This document shows, piece after piece, positions 34,873 to 44,200 of a stretch of 64,000 nucleotides of DNA. The notes under the pieces are model-generated. The model saw only the letters and a program-made list of their open reading frames with translations. It made no database searches and was not told the DNA's origin. The number at the start of each line of letters is the position of its first letter. Positions within the stretch are counted from its first letter, which is position 1. Origin of the DNA: Microtetraspora sp. NBRC 13810 (lineage in GTDB: Bacteria; Actinomycetota; Actinomycetes; Streptosporangiales; Streptosporangiaceae); NCBI RefSeq assembly GCF_030268685.1, contig NZ_BSRQ01000012.1, positions 186,001 to 250,000 on the forward strand, given 5' to 3'. Position numbers and translations under genes: made by a program.

Positions 34873-35000
34873 GCGTCGCGAACACGTTCACCGTGCCGCC
34901 CCTGCCCGTCATGCGGCCGGGGGCGCCCGGATTGATCGGGATCACCTGTGGTCAGACGGCCCTCGATGAGGCAAGATGAGGGCACCAACTGAATGACCCC

Positions 35001-35090
35001 CGCGGGAGCTCGGAGTAACCGGGCTGAGAGGGCAGCTGCGATCGCTGCCGACCGCCTGAACCTGTCCCGATAATGCGGGCGTAGGGAGCG
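35001..35090 (+). promoter_or_regulatory. TPP riboswitch (THI box)
   Basis: The aptamer core is directly readable: GGGCTGAGAGGGC, a short P3 arm GGCAGCTGCGATCGCTGCC, then CCTGAACCTGTCCC, GATAATGC and GCGTAGGGAG, in the canonical thi-box order. The last element, AGGGAG (35083-35088), is also the ribosome-binding site for the gene starting 8 nt later. TPP binding should therefore hide the Shine-Dalgarno and block translation. Confidence 0.93.
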
Positions 35091-35096
35091 TGTGCG

Positions 35097-36458
35097 ATGT
35101 CGTCGGCGATCGTCCCCCCGAAAGACCTCGGCGATTCCCCGGGTGCCCCGGGCGAAGCTCCGCTCACCCTCGACCAGGCGCCGCCCAAGACCCTCGGCGT
35201 GCTCGACCAGGGGGCGTTCTGGGCCAACCTCGGGGTCAGCCTGCTGGGCTTCTCCGGCGCGATCACCCTGCTCAACCCGCTCGGCGACCGGCCGCTCAGC
35301 GTGGTGGCCGCGCTGACCGCGGCCGTCGTGGGCAGCCTGATCGGCACCGCGATGGTCGGCCTCGCGGCCGTGCCCGGCGCGCAGACCGGCGCCCCGGCGA
35401 TGGTGCTGCTGCGCGGCCTGTTCGGCGCCCGGCTGTCCTACGTGCCGACCGTGCTGAACATCGTCCAGATGCTCGGCTGGGGCGCCTTCGAGCTGTGGGT
35501 GATCGCCACCGGCGCCCAGGCCATCTTCGGCGACGGCGTGCCGTACGCGGTCTGGGTGGTCGCGGCGGGGCTGGTCACGGTGGTGCTGGCGATCTGGCCG
35601 CTCGGCGCGGTGCGGGTGATCCGCCGTTTCGTCACGGTCGGCGTGGTCATCTCCATGATCTGGCTGACGGTGGCGCTGATCCGGATGGGGCCGCCGCTGG
35701 CGGAGGGGTCGTGGCAGGCGTTCGCGCCCGCGGTGGACTACGTCATCGCGCTGTCGGTGTCGTGGGTGCCGATGGCGGCCGACTTCGCCCGGCACTCCCG
35801 ATCCAGCCGGGCGGCCTTCGGCGGCGTCGTCGGCGGTTACACGATCGCCCAGGTGGCCTGCCTGGGACTCGGCATCGTCGCGCTCTCCCTGGTCGGCAAC
35901 GACGTGAACCAGGTGTGGAGCGCGTTCGTGGCGGCACCGCTCGGCGCGCTGTTCTTCGGCATCCTGGTGATCAGGGAGACCGACCAGTCGTTCGCGAACG
36001 TCTACTCCACCACGATGTCGCTGCAGAACCTGATGCCCAGGGTGGACCGCCGGATCATCTCCTCCGGCATCGGCGTGCTGACCATCGTGATCGCGCTCGG
36101 CATCGACGTGAACTCCTACGCCGCGTTCCTCGGCCTGATCGGCGCCGTCTTCGTGCCGATGTTCGGCGTGCTGGTGGTGGACTACTTCCTGCTCGGCGGC
36201 CGGGCCAGGTGGAACACCGCGCAGGACGCGCCGTCCCGCTGGTCGATGATCCTGCCGTGGGTGCTGGGCTTCGCGGCCTGGTGGCTGCTGGCGGCGCCGT
36301 CCAGCGTGTCGTGGTGGGCGGCGATCTGGAACGGCGCACGGGAGGCGATCGGCTTCGCCCCGGCCCCGTGGATGAGCGCGGCCCTCGGCGCCTTCCTCGT
36401 GTCCGGCCTGGTCACGCTGCTGCTCGGCCGGCTCAGGCGCCCGGTGCGGGACCGCTAG
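35097..36458 (+). CDS. cytX: CytX-type hydroxymethylpyrimidine permease (NCS1 family)
   Basis: A 453-residue NCS1 transporter with about 12 helices: FWANLGVSLLGFSGAI, GAQTGAPAMVLLRGLFG, WVPMAADFARHSRSSRAAFGG and the aromatic C-terminal part. The substrate is inferred from the upstream TPP riboswitch: thiamine-regulated NCS1 members (CytX) take up the HMP moiety of thiamine. Its TAG stop overlaps the stop of ogt on the other strand within CTAG (36455-36458). Confidence 0.9.
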   Translation: MSSAIVPPKDLGDSPGAPGEAPLTLDQAPPKTLGVLDQGAFWANLGVSLLGFSGAITLLNPLGDRPLSVVAALTAAVVGSLIGTAMVGLAAVPGAQTGAPAMVLLRGLFGARLSYVPTVLNIVQMLGWGAFELWVIATGAQAIFGDGVPYAVWVVAAGLVTVVLAIWPLGAVRVIRRFVTVGVVISMIWLTVALIRMGPPLAEGSWQAFAPAVDYVIALSVSWVPMAADFARHSRSSRAAFGGVVGGYTIAQVACLGLGIVALSLVGNDVNQVWSAFVAAPLGALFFGILVIRETDQSFANVYSTTMSLQNLMPRVDRRIISSGIGVLTIVIALGIDVNSYAAFLGLIGAVFVPMFGVLVVDYFLLGGRARWNTAQDAPSRWSMILPWVLGFAAWWLLAAPSSVSWWAAIWNGAREAIGFAPAPWMSAALGAFLVSGLVTLLLGRLRRPVRDR

Positions 36459-40975: not shown

Positions 40976-41115
40976 ACGCCACGATCCTCCTTTGTGATCG
41001 GAAAGACGCCCGGCGAACGATCATGTTTCACGTGAATCAACGGCCACCCGCATCGGCCCGGCGAAACGGACCTTACGGATCGATGACGGTTTGTGGCTGG
41101 GACGCGACTCAGCCG

Positions 41116-41121
41116 TACCGT
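41116..41121 (+). promoter_or_regulatory. Candidate -10 box of the two-component operon
   Basis: TACCGT lies 6 nt before the GTG that opens the leader ORF, consistent with a leaderless message. Confidence 0.5.
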
Positions 41122-41127
41122 GGAGGG

Positions 41128-41163
41128 GTGATGGAGCGCGAGCGCGAGGGCGGGGACCGGTGA
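41128..41163 (+). CDS. Short leader ORF overlapping the response-regulator start
   Basis: An 11-codon frame (GTG-ATG-GAG, then Arg/Glu codons, ending GDR-stop) opens 6 nt after TACCGT and has GGAGGG just before it. Its TGA overlaps the GTG of the regulator gene as GTGA. It may recruit ribosomes and couple translation to the regulator; it could also be chance, since only the spacing supports it. Confidence 0.4.
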   Translation: MMEREREGGDR

Positions 41164-41870
41164 GCGCGGGAGCGGCGGCACGCATTCTCGTGGTGGACGA
41201 CGACCCCACGGTCGCGGAGGTGGTGGCCCGCTATCTCGAACGCGACGGCCACGAGGTCCGGTGCGTGGGCGACGGCGCGGAGGCGCTGCGCCAGGCGCTG
41301 GCCGAGCCGCCCGACCTACTGGTGCTCGACCTGATGCTGCCCAAGATGGACGGCCTCCAGGTGTGCAAGAAGCTGCGCGAGCGCTGGCCGGTGCCGGTGA
41401 TCATGCTGACCGCGCTCGGCGACGAGATGGACCGGGTGGTCGGCCTGGAGACCGGTGCCGACGACTACGTGACCAAGCCGTTCAGCCCGCGCGAACTGGC
41501 CCTGCGGGTGCAGTCGGTGCTCCGCCGGGCGCGCGGCGCACCGGTCATGACCGGTACCGGCATCCTGCGTGACGCCGGCCTGGTGGTGGACGTGGGTGCG
41601 CACGAGGTACGGCTCGCCGGCCGGGAGATCCTGCTGACCGCCCGCGAGTTCGACCTGCTGGCCTACCTCATGCGCAACCCGCGCCAGGCGTTCAGCCGTT
41701 CGGCGCTGCTCGACCAGGTGTGGGGCTGGTCGTTCGGCGACTCCTCCACGGTGACCGTGCACGTGCGGCGGCTCAGGGAGAAGATCGAGGCCGATCCGAC
41801 CGCGCCGCGCCGCATCGTCACGGTCTGGGGCGTGGGCTACCGGTACGAGCCGACGGACCCGGCCGCATGA
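41160..41870 (+). CDS. OmpR/PhoB-type response regulator
   Basis: A 236-residue regulator: receiver domain (8-122) with DDDP acidic pocket, phospho-acceptor D57 (LVLDLMLPKMDG), LTALGD and K106-region TKPFSPREL, and a winged helix (about 140-232; LTAREFDLLAYLMRNPRQ, TVTVHVRRLREKIE, VWGVGYRY). GTG at 41160 overlaps the leader ORF stop and GGGG lies a few bases upstream. It is coupled to the kinase gene by ATGA. Confidence 0.93.
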   Translation: MSAGAAARILVVDDDPTVAEVVARYLERDGHEVRCVGDGAEALRQALAEPPDLLVLDLMLPKMDGLQVCKKLRERWPVPVIMLTALGDEMDRVVGLETGADDYVTKPFSPRELALRVQSVLRRARGAPVMTGTGILRDAGLVVDVGAHEVRLAGREILLTAREFDLLAYLMRNPRQAFSRSALLDQVWGWSFGDSSTVTVHVRRLREKIEADPTAPRRIVTVWGVGYRYEPTDPAA

Positions 41871-42985
41871 TCTGGGAGATCATCGCCGTCTCCGCGGGCT
41901 GCGGGATCGTCACCGTGGTCATCGGCCTGCTGGTCATGCGGCTGCTGCGGGAGCGTTCGATCGGCGTGATGCTCGCGGTGGTCGCGGTGGTCACCGTGTT
42001 CGCGACCTTGGCCGGAGTGGTGGGGATCACCATGCGGATGCTCATCGCGAGTCACTCGCGGGACATCGTGCTCAGCGTGGTCGCCGTGGGCGGCATGGTC
42101 GGCCTCGGGGTGGCGCTGGTGCTGGCCCGCCGGGTGGTGGCGGCCAGCCGCCGCCTGGTCTCCGCCGTGCAGGAGGTGCCGGAGGACAGCGGTTTCACCC
42201 CGCCGGACGGGCTGCCGGCCGAGCTGCGCACGATCGCCAGCACGCTGGACGAGGCGTATGACCGGTTGCGCACCGGACGGGAGCGCGAGCGCGCGCTGGA
42301 GAGCGCCAGGCGGGAGCTGGTCGCCTGGGTCAGCCACGACCTGCGCACGCCGCTGGCCGGGATGCGGGCGATGGCGGAGGCGCTGGAGGACGGCGTCGTC
42401 GCCGACGAGCCGACCATGCGGCGCTACCACACGCAGATCCGGCTGGAGGTGGACCGCCTCTCCGGCATGGTGGACGACCTCTTCGAGCTGTCCAGGATCC
42501 ACGCGGGCGCCCTGCGGCTGTCCCGGCGCAGGGTGGGTCTCGGCGATCTGATGGCCGACGCGCTGGCCGGGGTGGAGCCGCTGGCCCGGGCCAAGGGGGT
42601 GCGGCTGGACGGCGAGGCCGAGATCGTGGTCCCGGTAGAGGTGGACGCCGACGAACTGGGCCGGGCGCTGCGCAACCTGGTGGTGAACGCGATCAGGCAC
42701 ACGCCCGCCGACGGCTCGGTGCTGGTCCGGGCCAGGATCGACGACGGGGCCGCGTGCCTGTCGGTCACCGACTGCTGCGGCGGGATCCCGGCGGAGGATC
42801 TGCCGAGGGTCTTCGAGATCGCGTTCCGCGGCGAAGCGGCCCGCACCCCGACCCCCGGGGGCGGCGGAGCCGGTCTGGGACTGGCCATCGCGCGGGGCAT
42901 CGTCGAGGCCCATCACGGGGCGATCGGCGTGGTCAACGAGGGACCGGGCTGCCGGTTCGAGATCCGGCTGCCGCTCACCGTCTGA
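41867..42985 (+). CDS. Transmembrane sensor histidine kinase, partner of the OmpR-type regulator
   Basis: A 372-residue kinase with about three transmembrane helices in the first 90 residues and almost no exterior sensor loop, a short HAMP-like linker, HisKA box VSHDLRTPLAGM (H157) and HATPase_c with NAIRHTPADGS, TDCCGGIP and GGGGAGLGLAIARG. The near absence of an extracellular domain suggests intramembrane sensing. The G1 box DCCGG has Cys-Cys where DxG is usual. Confidence 0.92.
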   Translation: MIWEIIAVSAGCGIVTVVIGLLVMRLLRERSIGVMLAVVAVVTVFATLAGVVGITMRMLIASHSRDIVLSVVAVGGMVGLGVALVLARRVVAASRRLVSAVQEVPEDSGFTPPDGLPAELRTIASTLDEAYDRLRTGRERERALESARRELVAWVSHDLRTPLAGMRAMAEALEDGVVADEPTMRRYHTQIRLEVDRLSGMVDDLFELSRIHAGALRLSRRRVGLGDLMADALAGVEPLARAKGVRLDGEAEIVVPVEVDADELGRALRNLVVNAIRHTPADGSVLVRARIDDGAACLSVTDCCGGIPAEDLPRVFEIAFRGEAARTPTPGGGGAGLGLAIARGIVEAHHGAIGVVNEGPGCRFEIRLPLTV

Positions 42986-43007
42986 GCCGCCGCCCGATGC
43001 CGAATCT

Positions 43008-43154
43008 TTATCCACAAGCGTCTGTGGATAAGCGGCGTGCCGCCTGCCGAGCTGTGGTACGACGACGCCGTCCACAGCCGCGGGAACAGGGAGTTATAGC
43101 ACGCCGGCCGGGTGAGCCGACACATGTCGTTATCCACAGACACTCTGGGGATAA
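43008..43154. promoter_or_regulatory. Cluster of DnaA boxes arranged as two palindromes
   Basis: TTATCCACA occurs perfectly at 43008-43016 (plus), 43023-43031 (minus) and 43130-43138 (plus), with a one-mismatch copy at 43146-43154 (minus, TTATCCCCA). Each pair is inverted around a 6-7 nt spacer. The cluster lies between convergent genes, so it is not a promoter for either. It is a candidate DnaA-binding, titration or reactivation site; there is no dnaA, dnaN or AT-rich unwinding region to make it oriC. Confidence 0.7.
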
Positions 43155-43183
43155 CATCACCGGCCGGGGCGTAGCGGCCTGGA

Positions 43184-43618
43184 TCAGGCGGTTTCCGGCA
43201 CCCAGGACACCACGCTCGGCCCGGCGTCGTCCCGCCGGTCCCACCATGGGCTGTCCACCGACTCCGAGATCGCCCGGAAGGTCGGGCACGGCCACCGCCA
43301 CATGCAACTCCGGCAACGCAGGATGGGCCGGGCGGCGTCGCTGGTGATCCCGCCCGCGTCACGCGCCTGGTGCAGGTCGAGCAGGCGCAGCCCGAGCTCG
43401 GCCAGGCCGAGCAGCTCCTCCCGGGCGAGCGCGAGGAATTCGAGGTCCGGCCCGGCCAGGCCGGGCGGCCTCGGCGCGGGCGCCTCGCCGTCCGCCGGAT
43501 CCGGCGGAGGGCGCAGGGGCTCCCGCCACGCGGTGGCCTTCGTGGCGAGATTGTGCAGATCTTCGAGGCGCTGCCGCAGCCGGTCTCGTTGCGGGTCCTC
43601 TGATAGCTCACTGTTCAT
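43184..43618 (-). CDS. Uncharacterised actinobacterial protein with CxxC motif
   Basis: A 144-residue hydrophilic protein: helical N-terminal part (SEDPQRDRLRQRLEDLHNL), Pro-rich middle, a second helix (EFLALAREELLGLAELGLRLLDL) and a C-terminal cysteine cluster CRSCMWRWPCPTF that could bind a metal. No family is recognised. The ATG at 43618 is the most plausible start; the frame is open further upstream. It is convergent with the kinase gene. Confidence 0.55.
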   Translation of the reverse strand: MNSELSEDPQRDRLRQRLEDLHNLATKATAWREPLRPPPDPADGEAPAPRPPGLAGPDLEFLALAREELLGLAELGLRLLDLHQARDAGGITSDAARPILRCRSCMWRWPCPTFRAISESVDSPWWDRRDDAGPSVVSWVPETA

Positions 43619-43837
43619 CGGTGTCGTTGGGCCCGCGCCGGCCGGTGCCCGCCCCTCCCTGGTGAAGTGACGGCACGGAACCGCCGGGCCTTCCCCCTTT
43701 CCGGCCACGCCGGTATCGCATACGGTAAAGTTTCGCGCACTCGGAGTTAGCGTGGGGCCGAAACCGGGGACAAAGCGCAGACGACTCCCTGACCCGCTGG
43801 ATCGGCGGAGAGCGTGACCCGGAGCGTTCGCGGCGCT

Positions 43838-43843
43838 AGTGTG
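43838..43843 (+). promoter_or_regulatory. -10 box of a leaderless transcript (STAS gene)
   Basis: TAGTGT lies 6 nt before the GTG at 43850. Confidence 0.45.
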
Positions 43844-43849
43844 CCCGCT

Positions 43850-44200
43850 GTGGAGCTCAAGGTCTCGACTCGATCACACGCCGGCCACGCCATAGTGGCG
43901 GTCGCCGGTGAAATCGACCTTTATACCGCGCCCCGCCTCCAGGCCGAGTTCACTCGGTTGCTGGAGGACGGGCCCGCGCGGGTGGTCATAGATATGTCCG
44001 GCGTCGACTTCTGCGATTCGACCGGCATGAACGTGCTGCTGTCCGCGCTCAAGCGGCTCAAGGAGCGCGGCGGCGCATTGGAGGTGGCGGCACCGCGCCC
44101 GGCTGTGCGGAAGATTCTCCAGGTCACCGGGCTCGACTCGGTGTTCATCGTGCACGAAACCGTGCCCGAGGAGTTGTTCATCGCCGAGTCGCAGGGGTAG
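43850..44200 (+). CDS. STAS-domain anti-sigma factor antagonist
   Basis: A 116-residue single STAS domain: HAIVAVAGEIDLYTAPRL and the phosphorylation loop DFCDSTGMNVL with candidate phospho-serine S57, then RPAVRKILQVTGLD. It would release a sigma factor by binding its anti-sigma kinase when unphosphorylated. The GTG at 43850 gives the usual length and follows a TAGTGT box; in-frame GTGs at 43814 and 43841 are alternatives. Confidence 0.9.
   Translation: MELKVSTRSHAGHAIVAVAGEIDLYTAPRLQAEFTRLLEDGPARVVIDMSGVDFCDSTGMNVLLSALKRLKERGGALEVAAPRPAVRKILQVTGLDSVFIVHETVPEELFIAESQG

Follow-up and report, generated by a model that had tools for sequence, protein, structure and literature searches.

The locus and its DnaA boxes

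The stretch of DNA that was analyzed, in the following called the window, comprises 64,000 nucleotides of a contig from Microtetraspora sp. NBRC 13810 (family Streptosporangiaceae). Between two convergent genes it harbors a short intergenic gap, in which four DnaA boxes are arranged as two head-to-head pairs. The genes and features of this region are listed with their window coordinates:

41091-41870, plus strand: flanking gene for an OmpR-type response regulator (Response_reg and Trans_reg_C domains)
41720-42985, plus strand: histidine kinase gene (HisKA and HATPase_c; HAMP under the cut-off), given as the longest open reading frame, with the true start probably later
43008-43154, no strand: whole element of two head-to-head DnaA-box pairs, 122 bp apart from start to start
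43008-43016, plus strand: DnaA box 1, TTATCCACA, left box of pair 1
43023-43031, minus strand: DnaA box 2, TTATCCACA, right box of pair 1, after a 6-nt centre
43032-43129, no strand: spacer of 98 nt that separates pair 1 from pair 2
43130-43138, plus strand: DnaA box 3, TTATCCACA, left box of pair 2
43146-43154, minus strand: DnaA box 4, TTATCCCCA, right box of pair 2, after a 7-nt centre
43184-43708, minus strand: convergent gene for a 174-aa protein, used as synteny anchor
43814-44200, plus strand: gene for a STAS-domain anti-sigma-factor antagonist, member of the conserved neighborhood

All four boxes that a preliminary description of the sequence had reported, namely three perfect TTATCCACA and one TTATCCCCA in two inverted pairs, could be located, with 98 nt between the pairs and the box directions + - + - along the element. 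Likewise, the gap is convergent as described, since the kinase open reading frame ends at 42985 on the plus strand and that of the 174-aa protein at 43184 on the minus strand. The observation of paired DnaA boxes is thus confirmed. Beyond the gene for the 174-aa protein the order is a STAS-domain gene followed by a glycosyltransferase (GT2) gene. The 174-aa protein itself gave no match in Pfam or NCBIfam and contains a Cys-bearing CRSCMWRWPCPTF stretch. An Rfam scan of the window yielded three RNAs, none of them at the DnaA-box site; a TPP riboswitch (Rfam RF00059) is located at 34992-35104 on the plus strand. A phage origin of the locus was rejected, as none of 50,697 phage records was matched in a blastn search with window positions 42700-43700.

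With at most one mismatch allowed, the window contains five box matches compared to 1.48 expected, a number that was reached by 2 of 100 shuffles, and four of the five fall inside the 147 bp of the element. A count over the whole genome (8,966,475 bases in 114 contigs), which had been proposed as a check, yielded 20 occurrences of TTATCCACA versus seven of the reversed control, and 71 versus 42 for the degenerate motif TTRTCCMCA. The element is the only place in the genome where four TTRTCCMCA occur inside 150 bp. A Poisson estimate from the density of this motif gave about 2e-8 fourfold groups and 9e-7 for three perfect boxes, in agreement with the earlier view that a chance origin is unlikely. 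Approximately 30 kb downstream on the same contig (C12:259634-259741), six looser boxes with one mismatch allowed lie within 108 bp, between the genes for a MarR-type regulator and a phage integrase. Because of this cluster, the element is outstanding by the quality of its boxes and not by their number, and it can be called the densest group with regard to strong boxes only. Three DnaA boxes of the same direction were also seen right after a nuoH-type NADH dehydrogenase gene, not far from a nuoJ-type gene (C9:42185-42287).

Distribution in the family and position relative to oriC

All 341 genomes of the family were searched with the pattern TTATCCMCA-N6/7-TGKGGAYAA. The pattern was found in nine genomes, and in seven of these it is located at the junction described above (the window's genome, G000, as well as G067, G098, G316, G063, G027, and G011). 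The carriers include Spongiactinospora rosea LHW63015 (G098), S. gelatinilytica 7K107 (G067), and Streptosporangium sp. KLBMP 9127 (G063). Both pairs are present in six of the seven junction carriers; G027 has a single pair, with TTGTCCACA 31 bp ahead of it. In G124 and G170 the pairs lie at other places, and no replication gene was seen in their 3-kb stretches. Conservation in close relatives, on which the preliminary description had made its reading depend, was therefore found, the pair being kept at the same junction in seven genomes with a spacing of 122-149 bp in six of them. The remaining 334 of the 341 family genomes are without the site, so that it is no general necessity.

In a tree that was calculated from three neighboring proteins, the seven carriers make up one clade exactly, which comprises five genera (g1, g12, g28, g64, and g68) and has a support of 0.991. 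The tree has 71 tips, namely 70 of the genomes with a junction-gene match plus G316, with the other 21, weak matches left out. All seven sampled genomes of these genera are carriers, and the simplest history would be a single gain with retention afterwards. A sample of 120 family genomes contained 91 with a match to the 174-aa junction gene, and the junction was scanned in 73 genomes (7 carriers and 66 others) as well as in the 19 remaining ones. The 21 weak junction-gene matches do not represent the same junction, since none of them has a STAS or GT2 neighbor. No head-to-head pair was found beside the neighboring gene in the 85 non-carrier genomes (66 plus 19). In 64 of the 66 there is also no box with at most one mismatch within 700 bp of the stop of the junction gene, whereby the contig of G093 ends sooner. 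Unpaired boxes occur near the junction gene in G064 and G090 from the set of 66, and somewhere in the stretch in 4 of the 19.

Among the 120 family genomes, 35 perfect pairs with centres of 2-12 nt were counted, and all eight with a 6-7-nt centre are located at this junction. The other 27 perfect TTATCCACA palindromes lie elsewhere and mostly have centres of 3-4 nt; six of them are on the contig of dnaA, at distances of 0.5, 26, 31, 127, 173, and 479 kb from this gene. A repeat or mobile element was rejected as well, because the 6-7-nt pair was found solely at this junction in the seven carriers. A pattern scan of a wider contig collection gave 74 stretches, of which three belong to carriers, and no further actinomycete is named in the titles of the remaining 71 (some read just “bacterium”). 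In a viral collection there were two pattern matches.

The presence in only 7 of 341 genomes would suit a functionless site, which arose by chance or persists as a drifting remnant in a short intergenic gap. However, the site is kept in all seven sampled genomes of five genera although its spacer has largely diverged (see below), and we consider such an origin hardly conceivable.

In line with the earlier remark that no dnaA gene is near, the sole match to the DnaA C-terminal domain in the window's genome is on contig C28, whereas the site is on contig C12. The DnaA open frame of this genome has 681 codons, with a long Pro/Gln-rich stretch ahead of the ATPase part. Two of the seven carriers share a contig between site and dnaA, and here the distance amounts to 162 kb (G011) and 245 kb (G027). 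Altogether, the junction gene and dnaA are on one contig in 31 genomes. In 25 of them the junction has its STAS and GT2 neighbors and is 43-245 kb away from dnaA (median 108 kb; in G030 the contig was treated as circular and the distance taken across its ends). In the other six there is a weak junction-gene match without STAS/GT2 neighbors, 1.1-1.8 Mb from dnaA. Since all 25 conserved junctions are 43-245 kb from dnaA, the conserved junction represents an oriC-side neighborhood; the gene for the 174-aa protein with its STAS/GT2 neighbors can serve as a marker of the oriC side. The element does not look like oriC itself, as it has a G+C content of 61% in place of an AT-rich unwinding region and dnaA, which would adjoin an origin, is on another contig. 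With four boxes in 147 bp away from dnaA, it has the box content and the location of a DnaA-box cluster outside oriC.

Pattern of variation in the element

Of the 26 boxes in the aligned pairs of the clade, 23 are perfect. The left box is the same throughout the 13 pairs, where the pattern permits one variable base. As the search patterns demanded near-perfect left boxes, part of this invariance is built in. The pair-to-pair spacing from start to start is 122, 122, 122, 123, 123, and 149 bp in the six genomes with two pairs. The spacer is 97-98 nt long in five genomes and 124 nt in G011, whose 149-bp spacing implies that the helical phase is not strictly kept. Between genera the spacer identity is 0.52-0.66 compared to shuffled means of 0.50-0.60, and within genus g68 it is 0.77-0.94. 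Two of the twelve between-genus comparisons top every shuffle (G000-G063 with 0.66 against a maximum of 0.65, and G063-G011 with 0.59 against 0.56), and thus the divergence of the spacer is not fully saturated.

Three boxes are imperfect in all, TTATCCCCA occurring twice and TTGTCCACA once. Both variants and TTATCCACA are also found near dnaA in 7 of 7 carriers, and none of the three 9-mer mismatches is compensated on the opposite arm. Judged by their sequence, the imperfect boxes are DnaA-box variants and not compensated stem changes, and the pattern of variation fits a DNA-binding protein with the tolerance of DnaA.

These data also bear on a bidirectional transcription terminator, in which one hairpin would serve the 3' end of each convergent gene. 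In most carriers the pairs are found at the two stop codons or shortly past them, and the convergent open frame of G063 and of G027 takes its stop codon from the left box of a pair. The pairs fold to about -10 to -18 kcal/mol, and the 199-nt stretch around them folds better than 200 of 200 shuffles (z -3.9). That actinomycete terminators often have no U tract counts for this explanation, too. However, when positions 42900-43300 were scored for promoter-like or terminator-like consensus sequences, none was detected. An intrinsic terminator would have a G+C-rich stem followed by a T run and would keep the stem by compensatory change, but the three mismatches in 13 pairs are uncompensated. Furthermore, 7 of 10 stem pairs are invariant, the single two-sided change concerns the outermost pair outside the 9-mer, and the stem covariation is not clearly above that of shuffled alignments (76 of 500 reach it). 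The 85 other genomes with the neighboring gene show no such pair there, in a comparison that covered head-to-head pairs only. Moreover, the same A+T-rich 9-mer is present in both pairs and in every carrier, which a terminator does not need. Terminator function is thus unlikely.

It might also be that the pairs serve as an operator or a structural site of a different dimeric protein, for instance the adjoining OmpR-type regulator, with a half-site that coincides with the DnaA box. Dyad symmetry reaches to GTTATCCACA...TGTGGATAAC in 10 of 13 pairs, right-box mismatches aside, and a response-regulator match precedes the site in 7 of 7 carriers. Nevertheless, both flanking genes end at the site, where no promoter-like sequence was scored, the tolerated variants equal the boxes near dnaA, and a second family shows the half-site, likewise paired and spaced, at dnaB and dnaA (see the next section). 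We therefore regard an operator of this kind as very unlikely. A role linked to the kinase was dropped, because G316 and G011 have the site without an orthologous kinase adjoining it, as seen at the locus next to the site.

Comparison with other DnaA-box sites and possible role in initiation control

The pattern was also searched for in a class sample of 394 genomes, 353 of them from outside the family. It is present in 12 of the 394, that is, in the window's genome and in 11 genomes which all belong to one other family, here designated f17. Nine of the 11 f17 pairs are located at one homologous place upstream of the DnaB-helicase gene (dnaB), with rplI on the other side in seven of the nine loci, whereas the stretches of the remaining two are short. 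The other two f17 pairs lie upstream of dnaA, with roughly 1.8 kb between them and the DnaA C-terminal domain. Six genomes have the dnaB-side pair on the contig of dnaA, 43-63 kb away from this gene, one of these distances being counted round the circle. All nine dnaB loci contain a third box (0-2 mismatches) that lies at a distance of 26 bp from the first and points the same way as the second, which results in a layout of boxes at 0, 15, and 26 bp with the directions + - -. A third box with at most two mismatches occurs at 0.5% of random window places scored alike, and the longer triple pattern is matched by 9 of 35 f17 genomes.

In E. coli, the boxes at the sites of DARS1 and DARS2, which we take to be the cores of these sites from their place together with the geometry in PMC5742627, were measured at 0, 14, and 26 bp with the directions + - -. 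Since the third box of f17 has the same 26-bp distance as in E. coli, the f17 triple is a DARS-core-like site at dnaB. The element of the window shares with the f17 triple a TTATCCACA-N6-TGTGGATAA-type pair near dnaA, but f17 has a third box, a single pair, and a place 5' of dnaB, whereas the window's clade has two pairs at another locus. With the E. coli core the element shares the head-to-head boxes I and II (14 bp from start to start there, 15-16 bp here), while box III, which in E. coli comes 12 bp further on and has the orientation of box II, is absent and two pairs about 122 bp apart replace one core. At +10 to +13, none of the 13 clade pairs has a box III with at most two mismatches (25 of 26 readings scored). 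The best candidates have three mismatches and belong to the first pairs of G067, G098, and G316 and to one pair of G011.

Owing to its head-to-head layout, the main rival reading of the element is a DARS-like rejuvenation site, at which head-to-head DnaA would promote ADP release and raise active DnaA, i.e., exert positive control. In addition to the pair orientation, which equals that of boxes I and II in E. coli, the complete + - - layout in f17 with box III at the E. coli distance speaks for recharging, as does the head-to-head contact, which is a prominent feature of DARS sites according to the sections of PMC5742627 drawn on here. On the other hand, box III is lacking from all pairs of the clade, and the oriC-side place resembles datA rather than DARS, as far as these are described in the same sections of PMC5742627. 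Altogether, recharging appears rather unlikely for the element. The preliminary description had proposed a titration, DARS-like, or replication-control site outside oriC. This proposal is borne out in part. Replication control is supported by the synteny in the clade, the proximity to oriC in relatives, the DnaA-box tolerance, and the same boxes round the dnaA genes of the carriers. The DARS-like half of the proposal holds for the geometry of boxes I and II and fails for box III.

The element resembles datA of E. coli in that its DnaA boxes do not belong to oriC, lie in the oriC-side part of the chromosome, and include a long gap. However, the essential datA boxes all point in one direction, according to the relevant part of PMC5742627, whereas the boxes face each other here (+ - + -), and the present layout is thus no pointer to the datA mechanism. 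In B. subtilis and S. coelicolor, DnaA-box clusters near oriC are reported to repress untimely initiation (portions of PMC5742627 and PMC4585315). These clusters (Smulczyk-Krawczyszyn 2006; Okumura 2012), likened here by what review excerpts say of them, resemble the element in having boxes outside but near oriC, but here a fixed two-pair head-to-head layout is confined to one clade. The high-affinity DnaA box of S. coelicolor is given as TTGTCCACA in the part of PMC4285127 considered, which counts against our preferred explanation. The head-to-head dimer of DnaA domain I is said to be conserved across actinomycetes, and the long domain II of Streptomyces has been proposed to link distant boxes (both from passages of PMC13270200). 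In the literature on DnaA boxes and DnaA-reactivating sequences of actinomycetes, from which the key paper on the Streptomyces cluster is excepted, we found no earlier account of the two-pair site.

Overall, we interpret the element as a candidate chromosomal DnaA-binding site outside oriC that controls initiation and is most likely a sink for DnaA, with a probability of roughly 0.6 for this reading. For its parts, DnaA very probably binds the element, and a role in initiation control is probable as well, while a sink is the somewhat favored form of that role. On each TTATCCACA-N6/7-TGTGGATAA pair, two DnaA molecules would sit head to head, and DnaA domain I with its long linker might bridge the two pairs, which are about 122 bp apart, into one four-DnaA complex. 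The junction near oriC would be doubled soon after initiation, and the element would then take up or inactivate DnaA. A negative effect is the most likely one because the junction is near oriC in the relatives and hence would be duplicated early. An uptake of DnaA after initiation has been argued for datA (PMC5742627) and for the clusters of B. subtilis and S. coelicolor (PMC5742627, PMC4585315), in the portions of these sources referred to here.

DnaA-box clusters outside oriC are already a known kind of site; new here is a conserved, clade-specific, oriC-side candidate site of two DnaA-box pairs. It is possible, though on balance doubtful, that head-to-head pairs with 6-7-nt centres are a distinct replication-control module of actinomycetes. 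Such a module would have arisen at least two times on the oriC side, as the two-pair looping site of the Spongiactinospora clade and as the DARS-core-like triple at dnaB in f17, and would control the level or the nucleotide state of DnaA by means of the domain I dimer. To our knowledge, the limits on initiation in actinomycetes are poorly understood. The element offers a small conserved target of 147 bp, whose two pairs keep almost the same spacing, in named strains that include Spongiactinospora rosea. Together with the independent case at dnaB, it allows a direct test of whether DnaA in this phylum is removed or recharged by head-to-head boxes outside oriC.
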